Shown one piece after another: positions 14,827 to 47,513 of a stretch of DNA of 64,000 nucleotides. The position numbers and the translations under genes were made by a program. Position 1 is the stretch's first letter, and each line of letters opens with the position of its first letter. Source of the DNA: an uncultured Acidobacteriota bacterium (GTDB lineage Bacteria; Acidobacteriota; Terriglobia; Terriglobales; Acidobacteriaceae); assembly GCA_903832055.1 (NCBI GenBank), contig CAILAC010000008.1:62001-126000 (forward strand), read 5' to 3'. The notes beneath the pieces were generated by a model. The model ran no database searches, was not told the origin of the DNA, and saw only the letters and a list, made by a program, of their open reading frames with translations.

Positions 14827-14857
14827 TTAGTCAGGTTTGGCGGCCTGCTTCGCACCG

Positions 14858-16258: not shown

Positions 16259-16344
16259 TGCGTCTCTGGGTCGTGGCGCACTGAACCGGCATCCCAAGTG
16301 CGAGTCCCAATGTGGATCGGCAGTAAGGAACGGCTTTTGTTGCT

Positions 16345-17532
16345 ATGACACACCTCCTCTTGACCCTCCCCGGGGCCCTGCTGTTGGCCGCGACGCTGCC
16401 GTTGGTTCTTGAACTTGCTCTCGTCACCCTGGCAAATTTGCTGCTCCCAAGCGGCAGGTCTGTCTCGAAAGAACCTGGATCCGCCCTCACGCCTGACAGC
16501 AAGCTGGCGATTATCGTTCCTGCCCACAATGAGGATTTGCTGGTGGGCAGGTCCGTCACAAGCCTGCGCGCCTCGGGCGGGCCGATGCAACGGATCTTCG
16601 TCGTGGCGCACAACTGCATTGACGCAACTGCCGACCGAGCAGCAGCAGCCGGCGCGGAAGTGCTGGTCTATAACGATTCGGCCGCGGTTGGAAAGGGCTT
16701 TGCCTTGCGCCATGGCTTTCAGCATGCTCTCAGTGAAGGCTGCACGGCGGTGATGGTCGTCGATGCAGACTCGATCGTCTCGGCAAATACAGTTGCGGCG
16801 GTGCAGAGGGCACTGGTCTCCGGGGCACGCGTGCTGCAATGCCGCTACGAGATGGAGAGCACCACTGAACGATCCAGTACCAGACTGGCTGCGCTGGCTT
16901 TCCGCGGATTCAACGTTGTGCGTCCTCGTGGGCGTGAGCGCCTGGGACTTTCCGCCGGAATTCTCGGCAATGGTTTTGCGATTGTGCGCGAAGTGCTGGA
17001 AGCGATTCCCTACGACGCATTTTCAGTCGTCGAAGATCTCGAGTATCACTTGCATCTGGTGATGGCCGGGGAACGTGTTCGGTATATAGACGAGGCCGTC
17101 ATCTCAGCTGACTTTCCTGAGTCTCGCGCTGGAGAAGCCGTGCAGCGTTCTCGGTGGGAGGGTGGCCGCCTGCTTACTGCTCGCACCTGGGCATTGCCGC
17201 TGATGGGGCAGGTGCTTCGTGGGCGTCTTCGCTTGATTGAGCCGTTGTGTGATTTGACTGGATTGCCGCTGGCTTTTGGAGTGTTTGCCCTGGTGGTGGC
17301 CGCCTGTATTCCCCTCCACTGGCTGCGCCTCTACGCCGGCGTGTCGCTGGGAATTGTGTTTGTACATGTGCTGACTGCCGCGTGGGCCGGGCCTGACTTC
17401 CTTAAGACTTTGCAACTTCTCGCTCTTGCACCCTTGTATGTGCTGCGCAAGCTATGGATGATTCCTGGCGTACTGCGCGGATCAAGCGCCAAGGCTGCCT
17501 GGGTAAGAACCGAGCGGAATAACACCTTGTAG
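16345..17532 (+). CDS. Membrane GT2 glycosyltransferase, processive type
   Basis: 395 residues. An N-terminal membrane segment precedes a GT-A domain: [18 protein letters not shown], the DxD motif VVDADSI, an acidic catalytic pair in [11 protein letters not shown], and QRSRWEGGR, the (Q/R)xxRW motif of processive GT2 enzymes. About three C-terminal hydrophobic helices follow. This is the layout of hyaluronan, cellulose or poly-GlcNAc synthase relatives that build polymers from nucleotide sugars on the cytoplasmic face. It could equally add a single sugar to a lipid carrier. It sits third in the sigma-54 unit, 86 bases after the WecG-STAS gene. Confidence 0.88.
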
Positions 17533-17693: not shown

Positions 17694-18728
17694 ATGAAGG
17701 CTGGATTTTTACCTGTTGTCGCTACCTGTATGAGTTGGACGCTGGCTTTTGGCTGCGCTTCACTTGGAGCCCAGCAGCCGGATGCGCCTGCAGGAATTAG
17801 CCCGACATCCAATGATCCAGCTCTCACGATCAGGAATCAGAAGGCGCTGGAGAGCTTTGAGCCAGCGGCCAACGAAGAATACACGCTCGGGCCTGGCGAC
17901 GAGATTTCACTTGATTTCCCTGGTCGCCCTGAATTAGCCAGCAAGAGTACGGTCGGCCCGGATGGCCGCATCACACTCCCGCTCGTCGGCCCCATCCATG
18001 TCGCCGAACTCTCCCGCACTGATTCCGGCAAGGCGATTGCCGATGCTCTGTCAAAGTACTACACCGATCTTTCGGTCACGGTGAAGATCGACAAGTACAG
18101 TTCAAACCGGGTTCGCGTTCTTGGCTATGTCCAGCACCCCGGGGAGATTCTCTTTGAAGAAACACCGACATTGCTCGATGCTATCGGCCGCGCTGGCCTG
18201 ATTTCTCCAACTGTGAGCAAAGACGGAGTCGCTACCAACGTTGGCACAGGCATCCCGGAAATGTGCACCATCTTCCGCGGCAACGATACCGCTGTCCAGG
18301 TGCAGTTGCGCACATTGCTCATGAGCGGCAACTCGCTGGCTGACATGCGGTTGCGCCGCAACGATATTGTTTACGTTCCTCAGCCAAAGGAGCTGTTTGT
18401 ATCGGTTCTGGGGGCGGTTACCAAACCTGGAAACGTGCCTTTGACGCCGGAATCAACGCTCTCTTCGATTCTGGCGATGGCTGGTGGGTTGACGGATGGC
18501 GCAGGCTCTTCCCCCAACATTCGCATTATCCAGCCCTCGACCGGCAAAGACTTCAAAGTTTCGTACAAGAAGCTGATGACTCTCGCAGGACAGCAGGAAT
18601 TCACCATCCATTCGGGGGATGTGATCATTATCCCCAAGAGCGGTTTCGAAAACTTCACCTATGTGCTGCAGAAGATCAGCCCCATAGCGACAATCGTCAG
18701 TCTGGCGGCCCTTGTGGGCGCTGGTTGA
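17694..18728 (+). CDS. Polysaccharide export protein, Wza/SLBB type
   Basis: 344 residues with a signal peptide (hydrophobic run WTLAFGCASLGA; the Cys does not sit in a good lipobox). The Poly_export domain is seen in YTLGPGDEISLDFPGRPEL and ITLPLVGPIHVAELSRTD. Two SLBB-type repeats follow (RVRVLGYVQHPGEILFEE..., LFVSVLGAVTKPGNVPL...TLSSILAMAGGLTDGAGSS). Family proteins form the periplasmic and outer-membrane channel for exopolysaccharide. A strong GGAGG at 17682-17686, eight bases before the ATG, fixes the start. The C-terminal hydrophobic stretch (IATIVSLAALVGAG) would fit the membrane-inserting end. Confidence 0.93.
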   Translation: MKAGFLPVVATCMSWTLAFGCASLGAQQPDAPAGISPTSNDPALTIRNQKALESFEPAANEEYTLGPGDEISLDFPGRPELASKSTVGPDGRITLPLVGPIHVAELSRTDSGKAIADALSKYYTDLSVTVKIDKYSSNRVRVLGYVQHPGEILFEETPTLLDAIGRAGLISPTVSKDGVATNVGTGIPEMCTIFRGNDTAVQVQLRTLLMSGNSLADMRLRRNDIVYVPQPKELFVSVLGAVTKPGNVPLTPESTLSSILAMAGGLTDGAGSSPNIRIIQPSTGKDFKVSYKKLMTLAGQQEFTIHSGDVIIIPKSGFENFTYVLQKISPIATIVSLAALVGAG

Positions 18729-18843: not shown

Positions 18844-21063
18844 ATGTACATCACGCCGAGCAACAATCCGGAACCGCAGAACCCGATTGCCTCCCAATAT
18901 CCGCTTCGTCCTGCTTCGCGGACCAGTCCCATTCGGATTAATGTACTGAAGAGTTTGCGCCTCCACAGGGTTACTGCGATCATGGTCGCCCTGTTGGTAC
19001 TCGGGCTCGGGTTAGCCTTTGTGGCGCGCCACAAGGCCAATTATGTCGCTGCGAGTTCCATCTACGTCTCGCCCACGCCCATCAAGACACTCACGGAGGA
19101 CCGGGAGCTCGACCGCCCTTACGAATCCTACGTACAACAGACCGTGCATGCCATCAATCGCTACGACGTGCTTGCTGAGGCAATCCGCAAGATGCCTCCT
19201 GGAATTTGGCTCTATCCTGGCGAAACTGAGCACTCCGGCGTTCTACGATTGCAGCAAAATCTCGATATCGGACGTATCGGCACCACCTATCAGGTGCAGA
19301 TTTCACTGAATGGGGCTCGCCCGGAACACCTGGCAGACATCGTAAACATGGTCACTTCGGTCTATCTGGAAAAGGCTCGTTCCGAGGAATTTTACGGCCG
19401 TGACGACCGTCTTGCTTCGCTGAAGGAAGAACGCACCCGGGTTCAGAATCAGATGGATACACTGCTCCAGGAGCAGTCGCAGATCAGCAAGGCTCTAGGG
19501 GTTGCGGCCTTCAATGGCAAGGGAAACAACCTGTTCGACGATCAGAATGCCAAGGTGCAGTCTGACCTGATTGCCGCCCACGAACAGAAGATTCAAGCTG
19601 AGGCCCAGCTGGAAGCGCTCAAGAATGGTGATTCGTCCGCTCCGACCTCAGCATTGAATGCGGCCGCCGATGAAGCTATCGCGAGCGACCCGGGCCTGAA
19701 CGCGCTCAAGACATCGCTCAGCCAGAAGAGAGCTGTTCTCCTTGACCAGCTTTCTGGACTTACGCCGAGCAACCCGGTCCGCCGACAGACTGAAGAGCAG
19801 CTTGCTCAGATTGATAAGGCGCTTCAGGATATGCAGTCTGATTTGCGCAAGAAAGCCGCGGCTCGTCTGGAGCAGAAACTGCGCACCCAGCTCAATTCGG
19901 CATCCATGATCGAGTCCAGACTGCAGAGCGACCTGATGCAAGGTACGCGGCAGGCTAACGTGGCTTCGCCCAAGATACAGCGTGCCGGCGAAATCCAGGC
20001 GGAGTTGGATCGCCTGCAAACCCGCTATGCCCTGGTAGACGACCGCATCAGTAATTTGGAACTGGAAAGCAGTTCGCCCGGCTCAGTGCATCTTTTTTCA
20101 CCAGCCATGACGCCTCTTGGTCCTGAAAAAAGCAAGATTACAGCTCTGCTGATCGCTATTTTTCCGCTTTCGATCATCATGGGTATTGTCTCTGCCATCA
20201 TTCTGGATCTGCTCGACCCCCATATTTATACCGGCAGCGACGTTGAGGCTGTCCTGGGATTTGCTCCAATCGGCATGTTGTTTGATGACCGCGAAGTGCC
20301 TCAGTTGGTCTTTGACGAGTGCGCTCTGCGCCTGGCAGCCGGTGTAGACCATGCGGCCCGGCTCGCCGGTGCGCGCACCTTTGTGATTACGGCCGTAAAC
20401 TCCGGCGCTGGGACGACCTCAATTATTGAGAGCCTCGGCAGCATGCTGGCCAAACTGGGCCGTAAGACGCTGGTCATTGATCCATCGGGCAACTCTGAGC
20501 CGGTTGCCTTCGTGACGTTCGGAACGGAGTTGCAGCGCCGCCCCATCAACATCAAAGAACCGGGAATACCTGCTGTCCCTTCGACCGATATGCAGATAGC
20601 AAAGTCCAATATTGGGTCGCTTCCGGTTAAGGTCGCCCCGAATAAAGGCCTTGTTTTTGACAGCTTCAATAGCATGTCTGCCGAATACGACATTATTCTG
20701 ATCGATGCAGCGCCGCTGCTGATCTCCGCAGAGACCGAATACCTGGCCCGGATGTCAGACGTGACTGTGCTGGTATCGGAAGCGGGAAAGACCAAGAAAG
20801 CATGGTTGACGCGCGCCGCCCGACTGCTGGAGCGCCTCGGCGTTGCAGGAGCAGCAGCTGTGGTGAACAAGGTTCACCCGGCACGCGCAGAAGAAGCACT
20901 CAAACACGACATGCGCGAGTTTGAATTGCGCAGTGATCGGGTTAATCTTCAGGAGTGGTGGAAGCCGGGCAACAAGAACCCAAAGGCGCCATCTTCCCCA
21001 TCCGGAGCCAAGGAAACAAGCCACGCCGACGATGACAACGTGGTTTTTGCGCACAAGCGATAG
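18844..21063 (+). CDS. Wzc-like chain-length/co-polymerase protein with degenerate kinase domain
   Basis: 739 residues. Wzz-type N-terminal half: TM1 near 45-65 (ITAIMVALLVLGLGLAFV), a long periplasmic coiled region rich in Gln/Lys/Glu (~170-380), and TM2 near 425-450 (ITALLIAIFPLSIIMGIVSAII). The C-terminal half has the BY-kinase fold but is damaged: the P-loop is NSGAGTTS (residues 519-526), with Thr524 where the ATP-binding Lys belongs, and Walker A' is VIDPSGN instead of IDxDxR. Walker B survives (ILIDAAPLL). The C-terminal tail has no tyrosine cluster. It is therefore probably a structural co-polymerase without autokinase activity (inference). Wza lies directly upstream. Confidence 0.9.
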   Translation: MYITPSNNPEPQNPIASQYPLRPASRTSPIRINVLKSLRLHRVTAIMVALLVLGLGLAFVARHKANYVAASSIYVSPTPIKTLTEDRELDRPYESYVQQTVHAINRYDVLAEAIRKMPPGIWLYPGETEHSGVLRLQQNLDIGRIGTTYQVQISLNGARPEHLADIVNMVTSVYLEKARSEEFYGRDDRLASLKEERTRVQNQMDTLLQEQSQISKALGVAAFNGKGNNLFDDQNAKVQSDLIAAHEQKIQAEAQLEALKNGDSSAPTSALNAAADEAIASDPGLNALKTSLSQKRAVLLDQLSGLTPSNPVRRQTEEQLAQIDKALQDMQSDLRKKAAARLEQKLRTQLNSASMIESRLQSDLMQGTRQANVASPKIQRAGEIQAELDRLQTRYALVDDRISNLELESSSPGSVHLFSPAMTPLGPEKSKITALLIAIFPLSIIMGIVSAIILDLLDPHIYTGSDVEAVLGFAPIGMLFDDREVPQLVFDECALRLAAGVDHAARLAGARTFVITAVNSGAGTTSIIESLGSMLAKLGRKTLVIDPSGNSEPVAFVTFGTELQRRPINIKEPGIPAVPSTDMQIAKSNIGSLPVKVAPNKGLVFDSFNSMSAEYDIILIDAAPLLISAETEYLARMSDVTVLVSEAGKTKKAWLTRAARLLERLGVAGAAAVVNKVHPARAEEALKHDMREFELRSDRVNLQEWWKPGNKNPKAPSSPSGAKETSHADDDNVVFAHKR

Positions 21064-21112: not shown

Positions 21113-24100
21113 ATGGCGTCGAATGGGATGAGTCAACAGATGAATCGCGAAGGCAATGCCAATTCGAAGCAACTCGGTCCCGAACCAAAGGTTCAGACCA
21201 GCGCTGGCGCTGAACCTGGTGCCGCGCCCTCATCCATCATCGAAGACAGCGGCATTGAAGCCGCTATCGGCAAGATATGGAAAGATCTGCTGGGCTTTCC
21301 TCAGGCTGGCCCTTCCATCAGCATTGATGAAAACTTCTTCGAAGTAGGCGGGACTTCGCTGCTCGCCACAATCCTGCTGGCCCGGATCAACAAGACCTTT
21401 GGGCGCAACCTCTCGATCGCTTCTGTCTTTGAGCACACGACGATTCGCTCGCAGGCCAATCTTTTAAGAGCCGCTGCGACCCCGGAAAACACTGCAGTAG
21501 TCCAATCGCTTCAAGGGCAGAGTGAAAATACGCCAACAGCGGCTGCCGGGATTCATTCTTCATCTTCTGCAGTGGCGATTATTGGGATGACGGGGCGCTT
21601 TCCTGGTGCCGAATCAGTCGAAGACTTCTGGAAGAACCTGTGCAATGGCTTTGAGTCCATCACCTTCTTCAACCGCAGCGAGCTGGAGCTGAGTGAGCAA
21701 GCGCTGGCGGAGCAGAACGAAGGCTACGTGGCTGCCCGGCCATTGCTCAAAAGCCCCGACCTCTTTGACGCGGAATTCTTTGGCGTTTACCCGCGTGAAG
21801 CCGCTCTGATGGACCCACAACACAGGGTCTTTCTCGAATGCGCATGGGAAGTGCTGGAGCGTGCTGGCTACGATCCAAATCATGTGCATGAATCGGTAGG
21901 CGTTTTTGCCGGATGCAGCATGAATACATACTTCATGCGCAATGTATCCCGCGAGCAAAACAATGGCCCACGCAGCTTCGTCGAGGAGTTCACCGGCAGC
22001 TACCAGGTGGGCAATTACGCAGCGATGATGGGCAACGACAAAGACTTTCTGCCGACGCGGATCAGTTACAAGCTCAATCTGCGCGGCCCCAGCATGTCGG
22101 TTCAATCGGCCTGCTCTACCTCGCTGGTGGCGGTGGCACAGGCCTGCCAAAGCCTGCTCACTCAGGGCTGCGACATGGCGCTGGCTGGAGCAGTCTCGAT
22201 TACCTTTCCCTTGCAGCGCGGCTATGTGGCGCAGGAAGGTGGCCTTGCATCGCTCGACGGTCACTGCCGCCCCTTTGACGAGAAAGCCAGCGGCACAGTC
22301 TTTGGCCACGGTTCGGCGATTCTTCTGCTGAAGCGCCTTGATGAAGCGATGGCAGACGGCGACCAGGTTCTCGCTGTCATTCGCGGCTTTGCCGTCAATA
22401 ACGATGGCGCAATGAAGATCGGCTACACCGCTCCAAGCGTCGAAGGCCAGGCCCAGGTCATCGCCCGGGCGCAGCAGATGGCCGGAGTTTCTGCCGAATC
22501 CATCAGCTATCTTGAGGCCCACGGAACCGGAACACCGCTTGGCGACCCCATTGAAGTGGCCGCACTTACGCGCGCCTTCCGGTCAACGACAAACGCAAAA
22601 CAATTCTGTTCACTTGGAACAGCCAAGGCAAACGTCGGCCATCTCGATGTCGCAGCTGGTGCAACCGGTCTGATCAAGACGGTCTTGCAAATCCAGAATC
22701 GGACCATTCCTGGCCTGCTGCATTTCAATCAGCCCAACCCCCATCTCGAACTGGACGACTCTCCGTTCTTTGTGGATCAGAAGCTGCGGCCCTGGCAAAC
22801 GCCAGGCCAACCTCTGCGCGCCGGGGTCAGTGCCTTTGGCGTGGGTGGAACCAATGCTCATGTAATCGTTGAAGAGCCGCCTGTCACCGCTCCTTCAGAA
22901 GCGAACAACGGCGCGCAATTGATGGTTTGGTCAGCAAAGACAACAACCGCAATCGCTGGCATCGCTGAGGCGCTTGGCCAGCACTTCACTGAGAATCCTG
23001 AAACCAACCTGGCCGATGCGGCCTACACCCTTCAGATTGGCCGCAGTGCTCACCGGCTGCGCCGGGCAACCGTTGTCGCCAACAGTGCAGAAGCGGCAAA
23101 GCTTACTTCCCGAAGCCTGATTCAGAACGACAAACCTTTCGAAAACCCGCGCCTGGTCTTCTGCTTTCCAGGGCAAGGGGTCCAGACAATTGGGATGGGA
23201 CGGCGGCTGTACGAAACACAGCCGGTTTTCCGTAAACATTTTGATGCATGCGACAGACTGTTGCTGCCCTTGCTTGGGAAAAGCTTGCTCAGCGTCGTAT
23301 TTCCAAATGAGATCACGCCCGAAGCGACCCTCCAGGCGACAGAGACTCTCAACCAAACCATCTACGCCCAGCCCGCCATCTTTGCAATCGAGTACGCGAT
23401 GGCACAACTCTGGCTTTCATGGGGCATTACCCCGGTCGCGATGGTTGGCCACAGCGTGGGCGAATATGTCGCGGCCTGCCTGTCCGGCGTTCTCTCACTC
23501 GAAGACGCACTGACGCTCATCGCGGCCCGCTGCCGCCTCATGCAGTCTCTGCCCACAGGCTCAATGTTGGCCGTTCGGGCTCCTGAAGAAACCGTCTCTG
23601 CTCTGCTCCAATCCACTGGCGCAGCACTTGATATTGCCGCAGTCAACAGTCCAAAACTCTGCGTCGTTTCAGGAGCTGACCCGGCGATTGACCTCTTCAT
23701 TGAGCAACTGGACGCGCAAAAGATCCTACATCGTAGGCTGGCAACGTCTCATGCCTTCCATAGCCGCATGCTCGACCCCATGCTCGACGAGTTTGCCGGG
23801 CATGCAAGCAAGGTGACTTTCCACGCTCCTTCTACCCCGTATTCCTCGTCGCTCACCGGCACATGGGTTACCGCCGAAGAAGTCGCAAAGCCGGAATACT
23901 GGACCCGCCATCTTCGCCGAACCGTCCGCTTTGCCGACGCGCTCCAGACCGTCGCCTCAGGGCCTGAAACCATCCTGCTCGAAGTGGGCCCCTCTGAAAC
24001 GCTGGTGCAGATGATGCGGCAGACGTTCATGGAAAAGGCCGGCAGCAGCGCCAACGGCCCGCTCATCCTTGCCTCACTGGCCTCGGCTAAAGACGCCATC

Positions 24101-27100
24101 GCTGAAGACACCGCAATTCTGACCGCTCTAGGCAAGCTTTGGACCTCTGGAGTCAAGCCTGATTGGCAAAGGTTTCACGGTGCCTCGCGACGCAGACGTA
24201 TCCTGCTGCCCACCTATCCCTTTGACCGCAAACGCCACTGGATTGAACCATTGCAAGCGGCGGCCCCCAGCAATTCCATGCTGCAACTTCCCGTACCAAA
24301 TGTCCCGCAAACCCCTTCAGTGTCCGCGGCGACCATCCATTCCCCAGTACCAGTCGAGGACACGATCATGGCCACTTCTTCCCCTCTTCCCGCCGAAGAC
24401 GCTGCGATGTTAAACGATCTCAAGGCTCTGATTACAGACCTCTCCGGCACCGACCTGGCCGACGCCGAGGGCGACGCCTCCTTTCTGGAGCTTGGCTTTG
24501 ACTCGCTCTTCCTGACCCAGCTCACCCAGGGAATCCAGAGCAAATACCGCGTCAAGTTGACCTTCCGCCAGATCATGGAGTCCTATCCAACTCTGACCTC
24601 GCTCGCAGCCCATCTTGAATCCACGGTCGCGCCCAATCTACAGCCGGCCAAGGCAGCCGCGCCTGTCTCTGCGCCTGTTTACGCTCCAGCACCGGTGACG
24701 ACAGTAGCCGCCTCTGTGCCTGCCAACTTTGCCTCGACTGCGCCCCTGGCTTCATTTGCGTCTTCAACAGCGCTTTCCGGATCCTACGAAGGACTCTTCG
24801 CCAGCCAGCTCCAGGCCGTGACCGGCCTGATCCAGCAGCAACTGGACATCCTGCGCGGCCAGCAGTTGGGCACCCCGCTAGCTCCTGTTGCTCAGGCAGT
24901 CCCTGTGCAGGCGGCAGTTCCGGCGGCAGCAACAGCCGTTTCAGCGCCACAGGTCGCCTCGGCCTCTACTGAAACCAAGCCCGCAAAGGCAGCATTCACA
25001 CCCTTCAAGCCGCTCGTACGTGGGGAATCCGGTGGCCTCAATCCGGTCCAGGAAGCCTACCTTCAGTCCTTTATCACCATTTACAACGAAAAAACAGCAA
25101 GCTCCAAGAGCTTTACACAGCAGCACCGCTCGGTCTTTGCCGATGGCCGTGTCGTCTCCGGATTCAACGCGCAACTGAAAGAGCTGGTCTATCCCATCGT
25201 CGTTGAGCGCGCCAAAGGTGCCTACCTCTGGGACAAGGACGGCAACCGCTACATCGACATCCTCAACGGCTACGGTGCCATCCTCTACGGCCACTCCCCG
25301 GATTTCATCGTCGATGCCCTGCGCGCCCAGCTTGAACTCGGCTTTCCCATCGGGCCGCAGACTGACCTGGTTGGCGAGTGTTCTGAATTGATCCGCGAAT
25401 TTACCGGCATGGATCGCGTCACGTTCTGCAACACAGGTTCAGAAGCCGTGATGGGCGCCATGCGTCTGGCCCGCACCGTAACCGGCCGCAATCTCGTGGT
25501 GCTCTTCTCAGGGGACTACCACGGCAGCTTTGATGAGGTTCTGGTCAAGTCGGTCGGCAACCAGCGCTCCATGCCCGTAGCCCCTGGAATACCGCGCGAG
25601 AGCGTCGCCAACATCCTCGTGCTCGACTTCGGCACCCCAGAGGCTCTCGAAATCATCCGCCAGCGCGCCGACGAAATCGCTGCCGTCCTGGTTGAGCCAG
25701 TCCAGAGCCGACACCCGGAGCTCCGTCCAGTTGAGTTCCTGCGCGAAGTTCGCTCCATCACCGAAAAATCCGGCTCCGCCCTCATCTTTGATGAGGTAGT
25801 CACCGGCTTCCGCACCCACATCGGCGGCATGCAGGCGCTTTACGGAATCAAGGCTGACCTCGCGACCTACGGCAAAGTCGTGGCCGGAGGCATGCCAATG
25901 GGCATTCTCGCCGGAACGCCGACTTATATGGATGCGCTCGACGGTGGCCAGTGGAAGTTTGGCGACGACTCATTCCCACAGGTCGGCGTTACTTTCTACG
26001 CCGGCACCTTCATGCGCCACCCGCTTGCGATGGCTGCGGTTCGTGCCAGCCTGCTGCACCTCAAAGAGTCGGGCCACGACCTGCAAATCAACCTAGCGAC
26101 AAAGACCGCCACGCTGGTCAAGGATCTCAACGACCTCTTCACTGAATTCAACTACCCGTCGCAGGCTGAAACCTTCTCTTCGTGGTTCTACCTAGCCGTT
26201 CCCACCGACCCCAAACTGGCGCGCATGCTGCACTTCCACCTGCGCGAACAGGGCATCCATATTCAGGAGGGCTTCCCCTGCTTCCTGACCACGGCGCACA
26301 CTGAGGCCGACCTTGACGAAGTCCGCACAGCGTTCCGCAATGGACTCGAAAAGATGCGCGCCGGGCAGGTGCTTCCCTCCGCATCGCCTGTCCTTGAGGC
26401 TTCCCCCAGCGCAGTTGCCGCAGCCCAGCCCGTAGTCGAAGCGGAGCTTGAGCCGGTAGCCCTCGACTATCCGATTACCGAGCAGCAGCGCGAAATCTTC
26501 CTCGGTACCCAGCTCGGCGACGAAGCCAATTGCGCTTTCAACGAGTCAACGTCTCTCATCCTCAAGGGCGAGTTGAACCAGCGCGCCCTGGAGCTAAGCC
26601 TCGAAAAACTCGTCCGCCGCCATGAAGCACTGCGCTCGACCATCGACGCTGACGGCGAGACAGTCCACGTTGCGGCCACCGCTGCACTCGGGCTGCAGAT
26701 TGACGACCTCAGCGCCTTCCCTGAAGCGGAAAAGCAGGCCCGCCGCAGCGAAATTCTGCTCCAGGAAGGCTCGACGCCCTTCCATCTGACCACCGGCCCG
26801 CTCTTCCGAGCCCGCCTGCTCAGACTTGGCCGCCAGGAACACATACTTGTTCTCACCGCTCATCACATCATCTTTGACGGCTGGTCTACCAACGTTCTCT
26901 ACAGCGAACTGAGCGAACTGTACAACGCTGCCGTTGCAGGCAAATCTGCCGCGCTTGGCGCGCCTGCCGCTTTCAGCGAATATGCCGCCAATCAGCACCG
27001 AGAGTTGAACTCCGCTGACCGCGCCACCGTTGAGGCGTTCTGGCTGGAACAATTCAAGAGTCTGCCCAACCCCCTCCAGTTGCCTACCGACCACCCCCGT

Positions 27101-29731
27101 CCTGCCCTTCGCGAAAATGCGGGCGCGACCAAGCGGTTCGTCTTCCCGCCTGAGGTGCTCAAAGCAGTGCGTAAGGCAGGCGCCAAACAAGGCAGCACCC
27201 TCTTCGCGACGCTGCTTTCCGGCTTCTCGTTGCTCATCCATCGCCTCGCGCAGCAGGAAGATGTGGTCATTGGCATCCCGGTTGCCGGCCAGGCGCAGCT
27301 TGAAAATGGCGGCTCGCTGGTCGGTCACGGGGTCAACTTCCTGCCAATCCGCAGCCATCTCACGCCAAACCAAACGTTTTCGCAATTCGTGAAACAGACC
27401 CGCAAAACGCTGCTCGACGCCCAGGATCATCAGGACTACACGTACGGCACCCTGCTGCGAAAACTCAAGATTCCCAGCGACCCCGCCCGACTCCAGTTGG
27501 TCGAGGTTCAGTTCAATGTGGAGCAGGTCGGTGCCGGACTCAAATTCGATGCCCTCACCGTTGACCTCAGCGCCAACGCCAAAACCCATGTCAACATGGA
27601 TCTCTTCTTCAACTTCATCGACCGCGGCACAGAACTCTGGCTCGATTGCGACTACAACACCGGACTCTTTGAAGAAGAAACAATCGAGCGCTGGTTCGGC
27701 CACCTGAGCGCAATTCTCGAGGGATTTGTCGCCGACGCTGAGCAGCCGGCAGACCAGGTCTCTCTGCTGACACCAGACCAGTTAGAGCAAATGCTTGTCA
27801 CCTGGAATGCGACCGAACGCAGCTACCCTCGTGAGTTCCCGATTCACCGCGTATTCGAGCAGCAGGTCGAGCGAACGCCAACGGCCGTCGCCCTGGTCGG
27901 AGCAAATGCTACATTCACCTACGCTGAACTGAATGAAAAGGCCAATCAGCTTGCCTACTTCCTTCAAAAATCCGGCGTCGGCCAGGGAGACCGCGTTGCC
28001 GTCTGCCTCAACCGCTCCCTCGAAGTCATTGTCAGCCTGATTGCAATCCTCAAAGTGAGCGCAGCCTATGTCCCGGTTGACCCCAGCTATCCAGCTTCGC
28101 GACTCTCATTTCTAATTCAGGATTCGGCAGCGAAGGCACTGCTCACCCAGCGCTCCATCGCCGCTGAACTGCCGTCGCTGAACACAAACATCCTCATCCT
28201 CGATCAGGACTGGCCGGTCGTAGCCCTGGAATCGACTCGCAATCTGGAAATTGATCCAAGCCATCACCATGAGCCCAACCAACTGGCGTATGTCATGTAC
28301 ACCTCCGGCTCTACTGGCAATCCAAAGGGCGTTCTGGTGCCACATCAGGCCGTTCTCCGGCTGGTCAAAAACAACACCTTCGCCAGTTTCTCTGCCGACG
28401 AAGTCTTCCTGCAACTTGCGCCCATCTCCTTTGATGCCGCCACATTTGAGATTTGGGGAGCGCTGCTCAACGGCGGCAAGCTCATCCTGGGACCAGTAGA
28501 CCGTGTCACTCCGGAAGAAATCGGGCGGCTCATCGCAGCCCATGAAGTCACAACGATCTGGCTCACGGCGGCGCTCTTTCACCTCATCGCGACCGAGCAT
28601 CTTGAGATTCTTCGCCCACTGCGCCAGCTGCTTGCCGGGGGAGATGTCCTGTCGGTGGCGCACACCCGCAAGGTCTGTGAATCCCTGCCTCACCTGAAGC
28701 TCATCAACGGATACGGACCTACCGAGAACACCACCTTTACCTGCTGCCACACCATCACCTTGGACAGCCTGGCCGCAGGAGCCGTCCCAATCGGCAAGCC
28801 TATTGCCAATACCCGCGTCTATATTCTGGACGCAAACCGCAAACCTGTTCCGCCGGGCGTTACCGGCGAACTCTATGCTGCCGGAGACGGACTGGCTCAG
28901 GGTTACCTCAATGCGCCTGACCTGACCGCGGAGAAGTTCATCGAACTCACGCTGGAAACCGGACGCACCGAGCGCCTCTACCGTACCGGAGATCTCGCGC
29001 GCTTCCGTTCCGTTGAAGCGGATGGAACCATTGAGTTCCTTGGACGCGGCGATACCCAGGTCAAGATTCGCGGCTACCGCATTGAGCTGTCAGAAATCGA
29101 AAATGTGCTGGAGCGCTCCCCGCTGGTGCGCTCGGCCATCGTCGCCGTGCGGACTGATTGGGTTTCTGCCTTTGACGCTCCGGGAGACAAGCGACTTGCG
29201 GCCTATGTCATTCCCACTCTGCCGGGAGACCCCGCGACGCTGGCCGCGCAACTGATACCGGAATTACGTAAACATCTGCAGGATCAGTTGCCTGACTACA
29301 TGCAGCCGGCAGCGATCATGCTGCTGACAAGTCTGCCGCGCACCATCAACGGCAAAGTTGACCGCCGCGCCCTTCCTGCACCAGTTCCTGAACAGTTGCT
29401 CCGAGCCCGCTCCATCGTCTATCCTCGCACTCCTCAACAGGAAATCCTGGCCAATATATGGTCCAAGGTCCTGGGCTTAAAAGAGGTAAGCATTGACGAC
29501 ACAATTTTTGAGCTTGGCGGCGATTCGCTGTTAATCTTTAGGATAATTACGCTCGCAAATCAGGCGGGCCTGAAGTTGACAGCTCGTCATGTATTTCAGT
29601 TTAAGACCGTTGCGGCTATTTGTGAACAACTTGAAATGGATTCGAATAATCAAGTGGCACAAAGCAGCGTGGGCGCGATACAGGCTATTCCGCGTTCACT
29701 TCACCGTCGCCCACAAACAACCCTGAAGTAG
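21113..29731 (+). CDS. Hybrid PKS-NRPS: ACP-KS-AT-ACP-AMT-C-A-T
   Basis: 2872 residues. Order: carrier (GGTSL, Ser82); ketosynthase with Cys334 (SACSTS), His470 (EAHGTGT) and His510 (GHLDVAAG); acyltransferase with Ser781 (GHSVGE) and HAFHS at 880, the malonyl-CoA signature; carrier Ser1131 (GFDSL); Ala/Pro-rich linker; class-III PLP aminotransferase with Lys1588 (TYGKVVAGG) and DEVVTGFR; condensation domain with HHIIFDG (1917-1923); adenylation domain from ~2230 with YTSGSTGNPKG (2396) and NGYGPTENT; carrier Ser2805 (GGDSLL). No KR, DH or ER, so the beta-ketone made by one malonate extension would become a beta-amine, as in iturin/mycosubtilin synthases. The A pocket reads D-A-F-W-L-G-G-T-F-K, one residue from the classic valine code. 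No loading domain precedes the first carrier, so it must be charged in trans. Confidence 0.95.
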   Translation: MASNGMSQQMNREGNANSKQLGPEPKVQTSAGAEPGAAPSSIIEDSGIEAAIGKIWKDLLGFPQAGPSISIDENFFEVGGTSLLATILLARINKTFGRNLSIASVFEHTTIRSQANLLRAAATPENTAVVQSLQGQSENTPTAAAGIHSSSSAVAIIGMTGRFPGAESVEDFWKNLCNGFESITFFNRSELELSEQALAEQNEGYVAARPLLKSPDLFDAEFFGVYPREAALMDPQHRVFLECAWEVLERAGYDPNHVHESVGVFAGCSMNTYFMRNVSREQNNGPRSFVEEFTGSYQVGNYAAMMGNDKDFLPTRISYKLNLRGPSMSVQSACSTSLVAVAQACQSLLTQGCDMALAGAVSITFPLQRGYVAQEGGLASLDGHCRPFDEKASGTVFGHGSAILLLKRLDEAMADGDQVLAVIRGFAVNNDGAMKIGYTAPSVEGQAQVIARAQQMAGVSAESISYLEAHGTGTPLGDPIEVAALTRAFRSTTNAKQFCSLGTAKANVGHLDVAAGATGLIKTVLQIQNRTIPGLLHFNQPNPHLELDDSPFFVDQKLRPWQTPGQPLRAGVSAFGVGGTNAHVIVEEPPVTAPSEANNGAQLMVWSAKTTTAIAGIAEALGQHFTENPETNLADAAYTLQIGRSAHRLRRATVVANSAEAAKLTSRSLIQNDKPFENPRLVFCFPGQGVQTIGMGRRLYETQPVFRKHFDACDRLLLPLLGKSLLSVVFPNEITPEATLQATETLNQTIYAQPAIFAIEYAMAQLWLSWGITPVAMVGHSVGEYVAACLSGVLSLEDALTLIAARCRLMQSLPTGSMLAVRAPEETVSALLQSTGAALDIAAVNSPKLCVVSGADPAIDLFIEQLDAQKILHRRLATSHAFHSRMLDPMLDEFAGHASKVTFHAPSTPYSSSLTGTWVTAEEVAKPEYWTRHLRRTVRFADALQTVASGPETILLEVGPSETLVQMMRQTFMEKAGSSANGPLILASLASAKDAIAEDTAILTALGKLWTSGVKPDWQRFHGASRRRRILLPTYPFDRKRHWIEPLQAAAPSNSMLQLPVPNVPQTPSVSAATIHSPVPVEDTIMATSSPLPAEDAAMLNDLKALITDLSGTDLADAEGDASFLELGFDSLFLTQLTQGIQSKYRVKLTFRQIMESYPTLTSLAAHLESTVAPNLQPAKAAAPVSAPVYAPAPVTTVAASVPANFASTAPLASFASSTALSGSYEGLFASQLQAVTGLIQQQLDILRGQQLGTPLAPVAQAVPVQAAVPAAATAVSAPQVASASTETKPAKAAFTPFKPLVRGESGGLNPVQEAYLQSFITIYNEKTASSKSFTQQHRSVFADGRVVSGFNAQLKELVYPIVVERAKGAYLWDKDGNRYIDILNGYGAILYGHSPDFIVDALRAQLELGFPIGPQTDLVGECSELIREFTGMDRVTFCNTGSEAVMGAMRLARTVTGRNLVVLFSGDYHGSFDEVLVKSVGNQRSMPVAPGIPRESVANILVLDFGTPEALEIIRQRADEIAAVLVEPVQSRHPELRPVEFLREVRSITEKSGSALIFDEVVTGFRTHIGGMQALYGIKADLATYGKVVAGGMPMGILAGTPTYMDALDGGQWKFGDDSFPQVGVTFYAGTFMRHPLAMAAVRASLLHLKESGHDLQINLATKTATLVKDLNDLFTEFNYPSQAETFSSWFYLAVPTDPKLARMLHFHLREQGIHIQEGFPCFLTTAHTEADLDEVRTAFRNGLEKMRAGQVLPSASPVLEASPSAVAAAQPVVEAELEPVALDYPITEQQREIFLGTQLGDEANCAFNESTSLILKGELNQRALELSLEKLVRRHEALRSTIDADGETVHVAATAALGLQIDDLSAFPEAEKQARRSEILLQEGSTPFHLTTGPLFRARLLRLGRQEHILVLTAHHIIFDGWSTNVLYSELSELYNAAVAGKSAALGAPAAFSEYAANQHRELNSADRATVEAFWLEQFKSLPNPLQLPTDHPRPALRENAGATKRFVFPPEVLKAVRKAGAKQGSTLFATLLSGFSLLIHRLAQQEDVVIGIPVAGQAQLENGGSLVGHGVNFLPIRSHLTPNQTFSQFVKQTRKTLLDAQDHQDYTYGTLLRKLKIPSDPARLQLVEVQFNVEQVGAGLKFDALTVDLSANAKTHVNMDLFFNFIDRGTELWLDCDYNTGLFEEETIERWFGHLSAILEGFVADAEQPADQVSLLTPDQLEQMLVTWNATERSYPREFPIHRVFEQQVERTPTAVALVGANATFTYAELNEKANQLAYFLQKSGVGQGDRVAVCLNRSLEVIVSLIAILKVSAAYVPVDPSYPASRLSFLIQDSAAKALLTQRSIAAELPSLNTNILILDQDWPVVALESTRNLEIDPSHHHEPNQLAYVMYTSGSTGNPKGVLVPHQAVLRLVKNNTFASFSADEVFLQLAPISFDAATFEIWGALLNGGKLILGPVDRVTPEEIGRLIAAHEVTTIWLTAALFHLIATEHLEILRPLRQLLAGGDVLSVAHTRKVCESLPHLKLINGYGPTENTTFTCCHTITLDSLAAGAVPIGKPIANTRVYILDANRKPVPPGVTGELYAAGDGLAQGYLNAPDLTAEKFIELTLETGRTERLYRTGDLARFRSVEADGTIEFLGRGDTQVKIRGYRIELSEIENVLERSPLVRSAIVAVRTDWVSAFDAPGDKRLAAYVIPTLPGDPATLAAQLIPELRKHLQDQLPDYMQPAAIMLLTSLPRTINGKVDRRALPAPVPEQLLRARSIVYPRTPQQEILANIWSKVLGLKEVSIDDTIFELGGDSLLIFRIITLANQAGLKLTARHVFQFKTVAAICEQLEMDSNNQVAQSSVGAIQAIPRSLHRRPQTTLK

Positions 29732-29763: not shown

Positions 29764-32700
29764 ATGAGACCAACTTCTGCATGTGACGTCGAGCATGTAC
29801 CGGTAGAAGTGATGAGCCAGACCGGGCTCGAAGACGCGTCCAACGCCGAGTCTTCGCAGCACCTTGCCGGGCAGGAAGAAAGCGTCTATGTCTTCCCCGC
29901 CAGTCTGGAACAAATCCGCTACTGGACACTCGATCAGTTGGACGGCGCGTCGACTGCGTCCAACATGGCAATCGCCGCACGCCTCGAAGGGGTGGTCAAC
30001 GACGCCGTTGTCGAGCGATCAATCCACGCCCTCGTCGAACGGCACGAAGCACTTCGAACAACATTTCGACTGGTCGACGGCCAGCTGTGCCAGATAATTC
30101 AGGAAGAGCCGCGCTACAGCTTTTCAATCACCGACCTGCGCCACCTGCCCGATGAGCAGAGGTCAGAGGCAGCCGAAGCAGCTGTTGAAGAACACAGCCA
30201 TGCGCGCTCCGATCTTTCCGCTGGCCCCGTCTTTTTTGCCCGCCTCATTCATGTCACTGAGCAGCAGCACATCCTCGCTTTCACCATGCACCACATTGCC
30301 TGCGACGGCTGGTCAAACGGCATTCTGATTCGTGACTTTACTGACTTCTACAGCGCATTCGCTCAAAATCGTGTGCCAGGTCTTCCTGCGCTTCCCTTCC
30401 AGTTTGCCGATTTCACGGTATGGCAGCAGAACTGGCTTGAGAGTTCCGCAGCCAAGGCGGCGATAAGTTATTGGCGCTCGCACATCCAGCGCGAGCTGCC
30501 CGCGGTTGATCTGCCCACAGACTGGCCGCGCCAATCAAAGAAAAGCTATCCGGGACATATCGAGTCAACACTGCTGCCCGATGCTCTGACCGCCCGGCTC
30601 AAAGCCTATTGCAGGACTCACAATGCCACCATGCATCAGGTGCTGCTGGCAGCTTTTGAAGCACTCATCGCGCGCTACACCAACCAAAGCGAGTTCCTGC
30701 TTGGCTCCACAATCGCCAACCGTACGCAGCCGGGGATGGAAAATGTCGTTGGCCGGTTTGCCAACCCACAGGTCATCCTGGCTGATGTCAGCGGCGACCC
30801 CTCGTACAACCAACTGCTGCGCCGCGTCACCGAGTGGAGCACCGAATCTTACGCGCATCAGGACCTGCCCTTCTCCCGCCTCATGGAAGAGTTCCAACTC
30901 GATCAGGCCGGGGCGACATCGCAGTTCCTTCAGGTCTACTTCGTCTATCAAAAAGCGTTCATGCAGCCCCAGCAGGCCCAGGGGCTCAGTGTCACTCCGC
31001 GACCGTCCGTTTCTGGTGGCGTGAACTTCGATTTGCTCGTCAGCATCGTCGAGCGAGCCGAAGGCCCTCGCCTTCAGATGGAGTACAACACCGTTCTCTT
31101 CCGCAAAGAGCGCATCCTCAGCCTGATTGAGATGTACGTGCGAACGCTCGAAGCGGTGATGAACGATGACTCCGTGGCCGTGTCGGCGCTGCCACTTCTT
31201 TCGCTTCCTGAGTCCCATATCGTTGCTGGGGGCGCTAGCCCCACACTCGAAAATCAGAGCGCTGATGCCTCGGGCCCCTCGATAGCTGAATGGCTCGACT
31301 CCCAGGCGGAACTGCTTGGCAATGCCTTAGCGATTCTCGAAGACAATCAGCAGATCAGCTGGAAGACCCTGCAGCAAAGCAGCCGAACCATTGCAGCATC
31401 GTTGTCGTCACTCGGCGTCGCCAGCGGTAAAACCGTCGCATTGCGGCTCGAACCGGGCGCGCATGTCGCGGCGACAGTATGGGCTCTCATGCGGTTGGGG
31501 GCGGTAACTATCCCCTTGTCGACATCGGCAAGTCCGGAAGAGTGGTCCGGGATTCTTGCAACTCACAGCCCAGACATGGCCCTGTCTTCGTCCGGCTTTG
31601 CCGCTCGGGTATCCGGCATTCGCTCTTATGAATCGCTCCTCACTGAACGGCCCGGAACCGCACAGGAAACTTATCCACTGCCGGACTACCCCGATTCCTC
31701 CAGCGCGGCGTGGTCGGCGCTCAGCTCATCCGGTATCGTAACCGCATCCCATCAGGCAACCCTGCAACAGTTGCGCGCAGCTGCGGCAGCCCTGGATCTT
31801 CGTGCTGGCGATCTCGTACTTGCCACTCGGGCCGAATCCGCAACAGATGCCTTGATTGACCTGCTTTTACCTCTGGCGGCCGGTGCATCGCTGCTGGTCG
31901 CGGATGCTGAGACCGGCGCTGCAAGTGCGCCCACCGTCAGTCACGAAACGTTGCCAACGGCCTTGATCACCCAGTACCAGCCATCCTTCGTCATCACTTC
32001 TTCGACGGCGCTCCTCCAAGCTGTGCATGAACGCTGGGCGGGGGATCGGCGTCTGAATGTTGTCCTGCGTGGAGGCATCTTGAATGCCGCCCAATCAGGA
32101 CGGCTTTCTGCGACGCCTCTCCGCCTTTGGGCTCTGATTTCCTCTGCATCCACGGCCGGTCCTCTTGCGATCGCCAAGGTTACAGGCACCATTGAACCAA
32201 CCTACGCCCCACTGCCGGGGCAGCGTCTGGACATCCTTGCTGACAATGATTTGCCCGTGCCCCCCGGCGTGTCGGGGGAACTGGCACTCAGCGCTGGCAC
32301 CCAGATGCGTCGCACTGGGTACCTTGCCCGCTCAACCTATGCCGCAGGTCTTGATGAAAGCAAGAACACACTCGTTCAGGTCATCGATTACTCCAACCGT
32401 CAGGTACGTTTGCACGGGTATCGAATGCGCCTCGGCGAGGCGGAGGAAGTCCTCTGGCAAAATCCATCGGTTGCTGATGCGGTTGCAACCATTTTGCCAG
32501 TTGAAAATGTCAGCACGCTCGTCGTCTACTACCGCTCTTTTAGTGTGACAGCAGAGGCGGATCGCGCTGTTCGTGACCGCTTCAAGTCTGTTGCTCCAGG
32601 GCACCTTGCATCCGCCGAGCTGATTGCGGTGAACGCAATCCCACGCAGCGCCGATGGTTTGGCGGACTTCTCCCGTCTCCCGCTTCCCGGCGCAGCAAAG

Positions 32701-33870
32701 TCTGCGCCCGAAGCAGACAGCGAGTACCTCGCGCCTCGTGATGAACTGGAAGCCAGTCTGGTCGCAATCTGGGAAGAAGTCCTCGGTAAACGCCCGATTG
32801 GCGTGCGCACTCCGTTCTTCAAATTGGGCGGATACTCGCTGATGATCGTGCGACTCTTCGCGCGAATCAACAAGACGCTCGGCACAGCTCTGCCCATCAC
32901 TACGATTTTCAACGCCCCCACAGTTGAGCAGTTGGCGGGTATCGTTCGCGGACGATCCTATTACTCCTCGCTGGTACCGGTTCATACCGAGGGCGCACGG
33001 CCACCCTTCTTCATGATTCACTCGTACCTCCTTTACCAGGGAATCCCCCACGTGCTTGGCCCCGATATTCCCTTCTATGGCCTTCGTGAACTGGATACAG
33101 ATGCCGAAGACATGACCGTGGTTCAGCGCGCAGCCGCCTATCTCGATGCCATGCGCTCCATCCAGCCGCGAGGACCGTACTTCATTGGTGGCTGGTGCGC
33201 GGCCGGGCCGCTTGCCGTAGAAACAGCGCGCCAGATTGCAGCCAGCGGCGAAGAAGTCGGCTTCCTTGTTCTCTTCGATTCATGGCGACCAGGATATTCT
33301 GCCGAATTGGCGCGTGAGCAGGCAGGCACCGCTGAGATGTCTCTGAAAGCGAAGCTCGGCCGCAAGTACCGCTTCCACCGCAATCGCTGGCGAACGTTGA
33401 CCGCCACGCAGAAGGTGAAGTATGTCGCGGCAGCTGTTGGCGCCAAGATTGAGTCTGTGCGCAACCGCATTTATCTGAAAAACTGGGCAATTGCGGAGTG
33501 GTTCTGCCGCCGCTTTGGCTTGCCACTTCCCCACTTCATGCACAATGTCAGCCTGACTACTCTCAATTCCCTCAAGGAATACCGGGGTGTTGAACCGTAT
33601 TTGGGCTCGCTTACCCTCATTCGCGCCGAACAGGCTCCTTACATCCCCGGAGCTAAAGAGCACTGTGGCTGGGACGCAATCGTCAAAGGCGGCGTCAAGG
33701 TTCTGTGGGCGCCGGGAGACCACGAATCCATGTTCCTCGAGCCGCATCTGGACACCGTTGGCGTGCTTTTGCGCCAGGGTCTGGCAGAGGCCTACGCGCA
33801 ATCATCCTCCGCGAATAGCGTCGTTTCGCGAAGCGCATCGATTGAGCGAATTGAGCAGGTTCCGGGCTAA
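29764..33870 (+). CDS. NRPS terminal module: C - degenerate A - T - TE (cysteine-type)
   Basis: ATG 29764 has GGAG five bases upstream and is preferred to TTG 29734; numbering below is from 29734 (1378 residues). The condensation domain is intact (HHIACDG near 186-192). The region ~515-1000 keeps the outline of an adenylation domain (PPGVSGELAL, RQVRLHGYRMRLGEAEE) but has lost the key cores: the Gly-rich A3 loop is SALSSSGIVTAS, no YGPTE is present, and the catalytic A10 lysine region reads ADGLADFSR. It should not activate an amino acid. Carrier Ser1035 (GGYSLM). Thioesterase with GWCAAG, Cys1155 in place of Ser, and His1330 (GDHESMF). The T-TE part is closely related to that of the 6924-10316 protein. 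It follows the hybrid synthase by ~30 bases and probably receives its product. Confidence 0.93.
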   Translation: MRPTSACDVEHVPVEVMSQTGLEDASNAESSQHLAGQEESVYVFPASLEQIRYWTLDQLDGASTASNMAIAARLEGVVNDAVVERSIHALVERHEALRTTFRLVDGQLCQIIQEEPRYSFSITDLRHLPDEQRSEAAEAAVEEHSHARSDLSAGPVFFARLIHVTEQQHILAFTMHHIACDGWSNGILIRDFTDFYSAFAQNRVPGLPALPFQFADFTVWQQNWLESSAAKAAISYWRSHIQRELPAVDLPTDWPRQSKKSYPGHIESTLLPDALTARLKAYCRTHNATMHQVLLAAFEALIARYTNQSEFLLGSTIANRTQPGMENVVGRFANPQVILADVSGDPSYNQLLRRVTEWSTESYAHQDLPFSRLMEEFQLDQAGATSQFLQVYFVYQKAFMQPQQAQGLSVTPRPSVSGGVNFDLLVSIVERAEGPRLQMEYNTVLFRKERILSLIEMYVRTLEAVMNDDSVAVSALPLLSLPESHIVAGGASPTLENQSADASGPSIAEWLDSQAELLGNALAILEDNQQISWKTLQQSSRTIAASLSSLGVASGKTVALRLEPGAHVAATVWALMRLGAVTIPLSTSASPEEWSGILATHSPDMALSSSGFAARVSGIRSYESLLTERPGTAQETYPLPDYPDSSSAAWSALSSSGIVTASHQATLQQLRAAAAALDLRAGDLVLATRAESATDALIDLLLPLAAGASLLVADAETGAASAPTVSHETLPTALITQYQPSFVITSSTALLQAVHERWAGDRRLNVVLRGGILNAAQSGRLSATPLRLWALISSASTAGPLAIAKVTGTIEPTYAPLPGQRLDILADNDLPVPPGVSGELALSAGTQMRRTGYLARSTYAAGLDESKNTLVQVIDYSNRQVRLHGYRMRLGEAEEVLWQNPSVADAVATILPVENVSTLVVYYRSFSVTAEADRAVRDRFKSVAPGHLASAELIAVNAIPRSADGLADFSRLPLPGAAKSAPEADSEYLAPRDELEASLVAIWEEVLGKRPIGVRTPFFKLGGYSLMIVRLFARINKTLGTALPITTIFNAPTVEQLAGIVRGRSYYSSLVPVHTEGARPPFFMIHSYLLYQGIPHVLGPDIPFYGLRELDTDAEDMTVVQRAAAYLDAMRSIQPRGPYFIGGWCAAGPLAVETARQIAASGEEVGFLVLFDSWRPGYSAELAREQAGTAEMSLKAKLGRKYRFHRNRWRTLTATQKVKYVAAAVGAKIESVRNRIYLKNWAIAEWFCRRFGLPLPHFMHNVSLTTLNSLKEYRGVEPYLGSLTLIRAEQAPYIPGAKEHCGWDAIVKGGVKVLWAPGDHESMFLEPHLDTVGVLLRQGLAEAYAQSSSANSVVSRSASIERIEQVPG

Positions 33871-33993
33871 TGCGGTCCCCGCTCACACATCAATCGCAGA
33901 TGCAAGCCCCCTACCGTGTACTTTCGGTTAAGCAGTTGCAACTCTTGTGGAGTTGTCTTCAGTAAACGCACCCGGCAACATGGAGTGATGAGG

Positions 33994-37691: not shown

Positions 37692-37694
37692 ACG

Positions 37695-47386: not shown

Positions 47387-47513
47387 GCTTCTCCCGCCCC
47401 CGGGGTAGGTCTGTCTTTCCAGCCCAGCCTCAACTCATAACTCCGCATTGCAAAACGCCTTCGTGAGAAAATAAGGCCTTGCTACTTGGAGACGAAGGAG
47501 ATTCAGCACAACC

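Follow-up and report, generated by a model that had tools for sequence, protein, structure and literature searches.

The 64,000-nucleotide stretch of an uncultured Acidobacteriota genome considered here (contig CAILAC010000008.1, positions 62,001 to 126,000), further called the window, encodes a hybrid polyketide synthase–nonribosomal peptide synthetase (PKS-NRPS), P0001. It is a single open frame of 2872 aa on the plus strand (21113–29731) with the order T1-KS-AT-T2-AMT-C-A-T3, where T stands for carrier, KS for ketosynthase, AT for acyltransferase, AMT for aminotransferase, C for condensation, and A for adenylation. Pfam matches and motifs thus bear out the domain order given by a previous sequence-only reading of the window, including the direct opening with a carrier. 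Merely about 45 poorly conserved residues lie ahead of T1, and the Wzc-like gene (18844–21063) stops ca. 50 bp 5' of the start codon. The true start may be nine codons downstream, because the homologue in locus L006 starts at residue 10.

The Pfam matches span residues 52–118 (T), 153–538 (KS, in two parts), 682–977 (AT), 1360–1678 (class-III aminotransferase), 1785–2227 (C), and 2248–2599 (A), with three carrier matches in total. T1 (21248–21478), with Ser82 in GGTSL, is followed by KS (21569–22852), whose motifs ACSTSL, EAHGTGT, and KANVGH are intact, a cis AT (23147–24262) with GHSVG and HAFHS, the latter being presumably a malonyl-type signature, and T2 (24398–24607), a PKS-type carrier with GFDSL. 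Next come the AMT (25118–26407), a class-III (GSA-like) enzyme with the pyridoxal phosphate-lysine motif YGK, and C (26453–27817; motif HHIIFDG), clustering with the other C domains of the family. The middle A (27833–29362; motifs YTSGSTGNPKG and NGKVDR, code DAFWLGGTFK) is of the loading type by phylogeny, and T3 (29408–29647; GGDSL) scores as a middle-module carrier of the family type. Among solved structures the middle A best matches the A domains of LgrA. T1, previously labelled an acyl carrier protein (ACP), looks like an NRPS peptidyl carrier, scoring 73.0 bits with a profile of terminal carriers, 66.5 with that of loading carriers, 37.4 with the T3 profile, and 15.5 with that of the PKS carrier T2.

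P0001 is followed, as in its core family, by a C-(A)-T-thioesterase (TE) protein, P0003 (29734–33870, plus strand), composed of C, a degenerate A (A0), T4, and a TE with the Cys nucleophile motif GGWCAAG. A0 (31276–32703, plus strand) has lost the A3, A5, and A10-lysine motifs, as have all seven proteins compared (that of the window and six relatives). Upstream, P0004 (6924–10316, plus strand), a stand-alone A-T-TE protein, comprises a C remnant, an A with an intact A3 motif and the Gly-like code DIMQIGCIYK, a T, and a TE with AGWCAAG. The Cys thioesterases of P0003 and P0004 (GWCAAG) have counterparts with Cys in loci L015, L042, L081, and L116, while Ser is found in L098. The middle A, the A of P0004, and A0 are the only AMP-binding matches in the window. 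No acyl-AMP ligase was thus found in it, in agreement with the earlier claim; P0001 has no loading domain either, and the starter must be activated elsewhere.

Relatives of P0001 and the iturin comparison

A search of 399 genomes of the class with the AMT domain gave 39 matching at E ≤ 1e-95, the window's own included, and a plasmid search gave 50 records. Domains were mapped in 40 acidobacterial stretches, eight plasmid regions, and loci L019 and L042. The KS+AMT and C trees comprise 50 rows each, near-copies, the fragment L100, and proteins without one of the domains being left out. In the KS+AMT tree P0001 lies within a 37-row core clade (starred support of 98), which spans Acidobacteriota, rhizobia, and Rhodobacterales. 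The family layout is a loader followed by KS-AT-T-AMT-C-A-T and then by C-(C, A or nothing)-T-TE. The loader could be assessed in 25 core-type acidobacterial stretches, namely those showing what precedes KS, two window-type stretches excluded: it is a separate A-T protein in 23, an A-T fused to KS in L082, and an FkbH protein with a carrier in L098. A-T is also fused to KS in L019, from Aliiroseovarius, and in L118, from Rhodobacter. The clusters of rhizobia, Loktanella, Rhodobacter, and Acidobacteriota (L042, L116, L117, L118, L075–L099) share with the window the backbone, the T-TE end, and, in many cases, exopolysaccharide (EPS) surroundings; unlike the window, they keep the loading unit and have a Gly-like middle A in nearly all cases. 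P0001, which has the carrier and not the loading A-T unit, is therefore a derived member of the core family.

Several relatives are worth mentioning in their own right. In L098 (12803–14926, minus strand) an FkbH domain is fused to a carrier in place of the loading A, which suggests a glyceryl-type starter and indicates that the loader of the family can change. An analogue of P0004, a stand-alone A-T-TE protein with the code DVWHFSLVDK, which we take to be Ser-like, lies near the core cluster of genome G327 (L084, 258–2951, minus strand). Related A-T-KS-AT-...-AMT synthases of two phyla are carried by the Spirosoma plasmid pSLIN02 (L114, 14586–21413) and a Variovorax plasmid (L115, 13995–26410), ca. 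20 kb or less from copper-resistance genes (P-type ATPases, multicopper/copper oxidases, and DUF305 proteins or cupredoxins); their product might bind copper.

The sequence-only reading had equated P0001 with the core of the iturin/mycosubtilin synthases. The two share the KS...AMT-C order, with a GSA-type aminotransferase after the PKS carrier, and the AMT of P0001 is homologous to that of the bacillomycin D synthase BamA (46% identity). However, BamA (L113), a Paenibacillus relative (L130), and a Planktothrix plasmid cluster (L129) all fall outside the core clade. BamA has an N-terminal fatty-acyl-AMP ligase (FAAL), a longer NRPS part, and a separate malonyl transacylase, bamD; the 432 residues between its KS and AMT contain only a 41-residue match to the AT end, versus about 755 residues with a full cis AT in P0001, which has no ligase. 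With no FAAL found, a full cis AT, and this tree position, membership of the iturin type was rejected, and the part that was lost appears to be an amino-acid A rather than the acyl ligase formerly presumed missing, since related loci have a separate or fused A-T loader. A ligase fused in homologous loci, which the sequence-only reading had named as evidence against itself, was seen in a different form: an amino-acid A-T is fused to KS in the distant L019, L082, and L118, while no fused ligase occurs in the 12 close genomes.

These 12 genomes of window architecture (G000, G002, G004, G010, G247, G123, and those of L008, L009, L010, L012, L013, and L014/L016) were also searched for the free FAAL that the sequence-only reading had proposed to look for. 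A FAAL query gave no full-length match in any of them (the best was partial, E 1e-13) and detected the FAAL of BamA at E 8e-61 and 28% identity as a control. No FAAL was seen beside the core loci, the A-profile scan of stretches of about 20 kb giving a single weak FAAL-like match, that of BamA. Priming of T1 by a free acyl ligase, an acyl-CoA, or a glycan-linked acyl group, leading to an iturin-like beta-amino fatty acid, is thus very unlikely, as T1 is peptidyl-carrier-like and the KS and AMT belong to an A-T-loaded clade. It would find enzymes in the window's genome, which encodes an acetate-CoA ligase (L003, over the cut-off) and a FadD-like ligase (L004, whose best NCBIfam match, FadD11, is below its cut-off). 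The Planktothrix locus, presumably puwainaphycin-like, shows that such an arrangement is possible: its ligase is unfused, its KS–AMT gap of 728 residues is of cis-AT size, and it is loaded by an adjoining free FAAL and ACP; in genomes of the window type no FAAL was found.

A loading-type A in the middle module

Specificity codes were read, against a GrsA ruler, in 108 A domains (110 less L021 and L011, copies of L007 and L073). Among the 32 loading As, 18 have DFWNIGMVHK or a code differing by one change, four have DAFWLGGTFK, and ten have other codes. DAFWLGGTFK is found in all 12 window-type middle As, whereas Gly-like codes (DILQ.. or close) occur in 34 of the other 41 middle As, a set that takes in non-core synthases. 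DFWNIGMVHK is a Thr code, and DAFWLGGTFK is read as Val from the usual code table; no listing of the latter code was found in the literature.

Two A trees were computed, a quick one with 91 of the 108 rows (six near-copy loci and five other As left out) and a careful one with 66 rows, from which further near-copies, unrelated As, L017, L089, and the cut L006 were left out as well. In the careful tree one side of a branch with support 100/100 has 24 rows, made up of the middle As of 11 window-type proteins, 12 loading As with non-Thr codes, and the second A of L019; this grouping recurs in the 91-row tree (100, starred). A 66-row tree constrained to hold the window-type As with 22 Gly-type middle As was 579 log-likelihood units worse (p-AU 2.85e-7), the groups for this test having been named when the BLAST results, the codes, and the quick tree were already known. 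By these phylogenies the middle A of the window clade is an A of the loading lineage.

The surrounding domains group differently. In the KS+AMT and C trees the window clade stands beside G001/L085–L097 (SH-aLRT 93 and 89, unstarred), in which the A-T loader, of the Thr type, and the Gly-like middle A are both retained, and T3 stays of the T3 type in 10 of 10 window-type proteins (100–111 bits versus 46–59 with the loading-T profile). Since A groups with the loaders while KS+AMT, C, and T3 group with the family, the exchange seems to have affected A by itself. Replacement of an A with C staying in place is known from microcystin synthetase (PMC2174460); there, internal As are exchanged, while here a loading-type A went to the interior and the loader was left without one. 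Aliiroseovarius (L019, 19944–30266) offers a related, separate case, its loading and middle As being sisters (100, starred) that share the code DALWLGGTFK, so that a loading-type copy would have entered the middle module with the loader kept.

No A-T loader itself was found in the window clade. In G000, G123, and G430 the best match to a loading A-T query is the middle A, and a separate loader was not found there. T1 stands at the head of the KS protein in 11 of the 12 genomes, and in L013 it is a separate protein of 157 residues, encoded between the end of the Wzc-like gene at 9437 and the start of the KS gene at 9965, an interval too short to hold an A domain as well. The C-terminal tail profile of A-T loaders matches the tail of this free carrier at E 6.7e-4, better than any other of the 2308 open reading frames outside loading proteins, the next one, in L079, being cut by a contig end. 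The L013 protein therefore looks like a loader minus its A. The tail is not universal, as the loaders of L089, L097, L105, L117, and L098 were not among the 45 matches listed. T1 fits best to the loading-T profile in seven of ten proteins and to the terminal-T profile in three, that of the window included, so that its descent from the loader carrier is only suggested. L015 was considered as a counter-example, being KS-first with no loader within 10 kb, and was rejected, as its genome encodes a separate A-T protein on another contig.

Charging of T1

The A inventory of the 12 genomes, comprising domains over the TIGR01733 cut-off, holds 27 amino-acid As. Eleven are middle As (the one in G002, truncated at a contig end, is below the cut-off), seven are of the P0004 type, and nine are others. 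No A-T loader is found among the 27. The nine others (in G004, G010, G426, G428, and G431) were examined as hidden loaders and rejected: all lie downstream of condensation-domain sequence, none has a loader tail at E < 0.05, and none has the Thr or the DAFWLGGTFK code. In four of the 12 genomes, G123 (99% complete), G427, G429, and G430, the middle A is the sole amino-acid A over the cut-off. The simplest reading of this inventory is that P0001 is a shared-A line, one Val-type A charging both T1 and T3. In yersiniabactin synthesis, too, one A serves several carriers in cis and in trans (PMC9547227 and PMC3672683), the single A of HMWP2 charging two carriers in cis and a third in trans (PMC9547227). 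The yersiniabactin starter carrier differs in having its own ligase, YbtE, while here the starter carrier would rely on the shared A.

That T1 is in use is suggested by its sequence conservation. Its serine is retained in 10 of 10 proteins, and the ratio of nonsynonymous to synonymous differences (pN/pS) for T1 of the window is 0.19, 0.32, 0.40, and 0.53 against L006, L007, L022, and L010, respectively, compared with 0.91, 0.84, 0.74, and 0.74 for the T1–KS linker (19–26 codons) and 0.04–0.22 for KS. For the pair L010–L012 the values are 0.35 for T1 and 0.73 for the linker. T1, with its pN/pS below that of the linker in all five pairs, is probably under purifying selection, weaker than that on the other domains. 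The least probable of the readings weighed here is that T1 is a leftover, never charged, with KS primed directly, e.g., by AT or an acyl-CoA; the faster evolution of T1 relative to the other carriers would agree with it, but not the kept serine, the low pN/pS, or the retention of T1 both as a free protein in L013 and in fused form in the 11 other genomes.

P0004 had been offered as an option for the missing loader, its Gly-like A charging T1. It is a product of the same cluster, has an intact A3 motif, and contributes the only amino-acid A over the cut-off, apart from the middle A, in the window's genome. Orthologues (≥ 48% identity) occur in seven of the 12 genomes, that of the window included. 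However, a full orthologue was not found in the other five, all retaining T1: G123, G427, G429, and G430 have no P0004 match at E ≤ 1e-130, and G426 has only a 41% match, in the A-T part of another synthetase. Moreover, the code and tree place the P0004 A with the middle/terminal type, not with the loading type, and the protein has its own T and TE. As the sole loader P0004 is disfavoured by its absence from five genomes, and this explanation is quite unlikely.

P0004 could instead take part in a division of labour, in which the relocated Val-type A serves T1 only, the sort of carrier that it loaded ancestrally, while T3, T4, or both are charged in trans by the Gly-like A of P0004, leaving the ancestral product unchanged. 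The P0004 A groups with Gly-like middle and terminal As in the 91-row tree (98, starred, 36 rows), T4 needs a partner as A0 looks dead, and the orthologues in seven genomes would be at hand. This is unlikely, as an A immediately before T3 is normally expected to load T3, no full P0004 was found in the five genomes named above, and in the 66-row tree no starred set of at most half of the rows holds the P0004 A beyond its pair with L014.

The reading that finds slightly more for it than against it is that P0001 is a beta-amino PKS-NRPS of the A-T-loaded kind, encoded in an exopolysaccharide cluster, whose loading A has been displaced and in which one A likely charges T1 and T3. In most relatives a loading A-T protein with a Thr or Val-like code primes KS-AT-T-AMT-C-A-T with a Gly-like middle A, and C-(A, C or nothing)-T-TE comes next. 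In the window clade the loader would have been reduced to its carrier, free in L013 and fused to KS in the rest, and the Gly-like middle A would have given way to one of the Val type from the loading lineage. This A most likely charges T3 in cis and also T1, either within the chain or across a KS-linked dimer.

Several points weigh against this reading. The relocation looks like a single event in a single clade, and the loading As of L017 and L089 lie outside both loading groups in the 91-row tree. Descent of T1 from the loader appears fairly clear for L013 only, because T1 fits the terminal-T profile about as well as that of loading carriers. The completeness figure is for G123 alone, so a loader could lie in an assembly gap in the other three one-A genomes (G427, G429, and G430). 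For the genome of the window itself, the inventory of two amino-acid As, the middle A and that of P0004, is not decisive alone. Finally, the pN/pS comparison comprises five pairs with synonymous sites near saturation, and T1 is less conserved than KS, AMT, or T3.

Polysaccharide surroundings and the proposed product

The genes for Wza- and Wzc-like proteins lie directly 5' of P0001, so that an exporter is close by, as in much of the core family. In 20 of 32 core genomes, versus none of eight non-core AMT loci, the AMT gene has the nearest listed Poly_export gene at a distance of at most 35 kb (Fisher p 0.0016), the chance expectation being roughly 7% (five genes per 5 Mb). The count leaves out the very short contigs of G415, G183, and G305 (core) and of G118 and G167 (non-core), and the AMT position is approximate, within the gene, for G001, G002, G004, and G010. 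The 12 core misses are eight g21 genomes (same family, one genus) and G327, at 55–253 kb, and G214, G226, and G360, with nothing near. Some core genomes are near-copies, so the 32 are not independent cases, and the value of 0/8 is weakened by the contigs of only 30–41 kb carrying the non-core loci G353, G399, and G335. All five alphaproteobacterial core loci inspected (L019, L042, L116, L117, and L118) are in EPS clusters, and an annotated 4'-phosphopantetheinyl transferase is present in L019, L116, L117, and L118.

The wider surroundings in the window are of the same kind. On the plus strand there are genes for a Wzx-like flippase (5142–6557), a WecG/TagA-type glycosyltransferase with a STAS domain followed by a family-2 glycosyltransferase (14837–17532), a Wza-like polysaccharide export protein (17694–18728), and the Wzc-like chain-length/tyrosine-kinase protein, named from its position and general features as its Pfam matches are weak. 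Immediately 3' of the assembly-line genes a membrane acyltransferase-3 protein (33916–35259), a candidate for transfer to sugar, is encoded, followed by a glycosyltransferase-like protein (just below the Pfam cut-off) with a UDP-galactopyranose mutase (36456–38813) and two group-1 glycosyltransferases (46079–48794). The minus strand carries genes for a Wzy/O-antigen-ligase-like protein (51335–52702; below the Pfam cut-off) and a Sfp/HetI-like 4'-phosphopantetheinyl transferase (52905–53714; Pfam ACPS over the cut-off, NCBIfam HetI below its cut-off). The Wzx-, Wza-, Wzc-, and Wzy-like proteins and the several glycosyltransferases place the synthase within an exopolysaccharide cluster. Two PAF-acetylhydrolase-like hydrolases, possible product esterases, are encoded on the opposite strand at 3345–4799 and 10347–11786, flanking the flippase and P0004 genes. 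The cluster also contains genes for two very large proteins (38904–42647 and 53841–58793) with three and eight CHB_HEX_C_1 repeats, one of which has a weak legume-lectin match as well, below the cut-off.

If the shared A is specific for Val, KS and AT would extend the T1-bound amino acid with malonyl to a 4-amino-3-oxo acyl chain, and the AMT would transaminate the beta-keto group, giving a 3,4-diamino acyl unit (3,4-diamino-5-methylhexanoyl), which C would join to the amino acid on T3, with P0003 completing release by its Cys-type thioesterase. The position next to Wza, Wzc, and Wzx suggests that the product decorates a polysaccharide or is exported with it. A diamino-acyl peptide made for the exopolysaccharide is plausible from the gene context, though the linkage would equally fit co-regulation or co-export. 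More doubtful is the wider proposal that the family of Acidobacteriota and alphaproteobacteria makes polysaccharide-attached vicinal 3,4-diamino-acyl peptides and that in the window lineage one displaced A charges the starter and every downstream carrier; it would serve all carriers of the line because the loader has dissolved and A0, in the neighbouring module, has died.

No prior description of a displaced-loader or EPS-linked system of this kind was found in the open-licence PMC literature, as judged by titles, abstract openings, and passages of PMC11354219, and one may exist elsewhere; a search for rkpA literature gave only papers on sponge PKSs. The domain order read from the window thus holds while the iturin label fails, and the synthase is, by its domains and phylogeny, a member of an EPS-linked, A-T-loaded family with an A-less loader and a loading-type middle A. 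If the proposed charging is true, P0001 would be a natural case of a loading-type domain moved inside an assembly line with the orphan loading carrier still in use, and it would test the reach of A domains to distant carriers, a question for NRPS engineering. It would likewise point to peptides built on assembly lines as one origin of the decoration of exopolysaccharides in bacteria of soils and plants.

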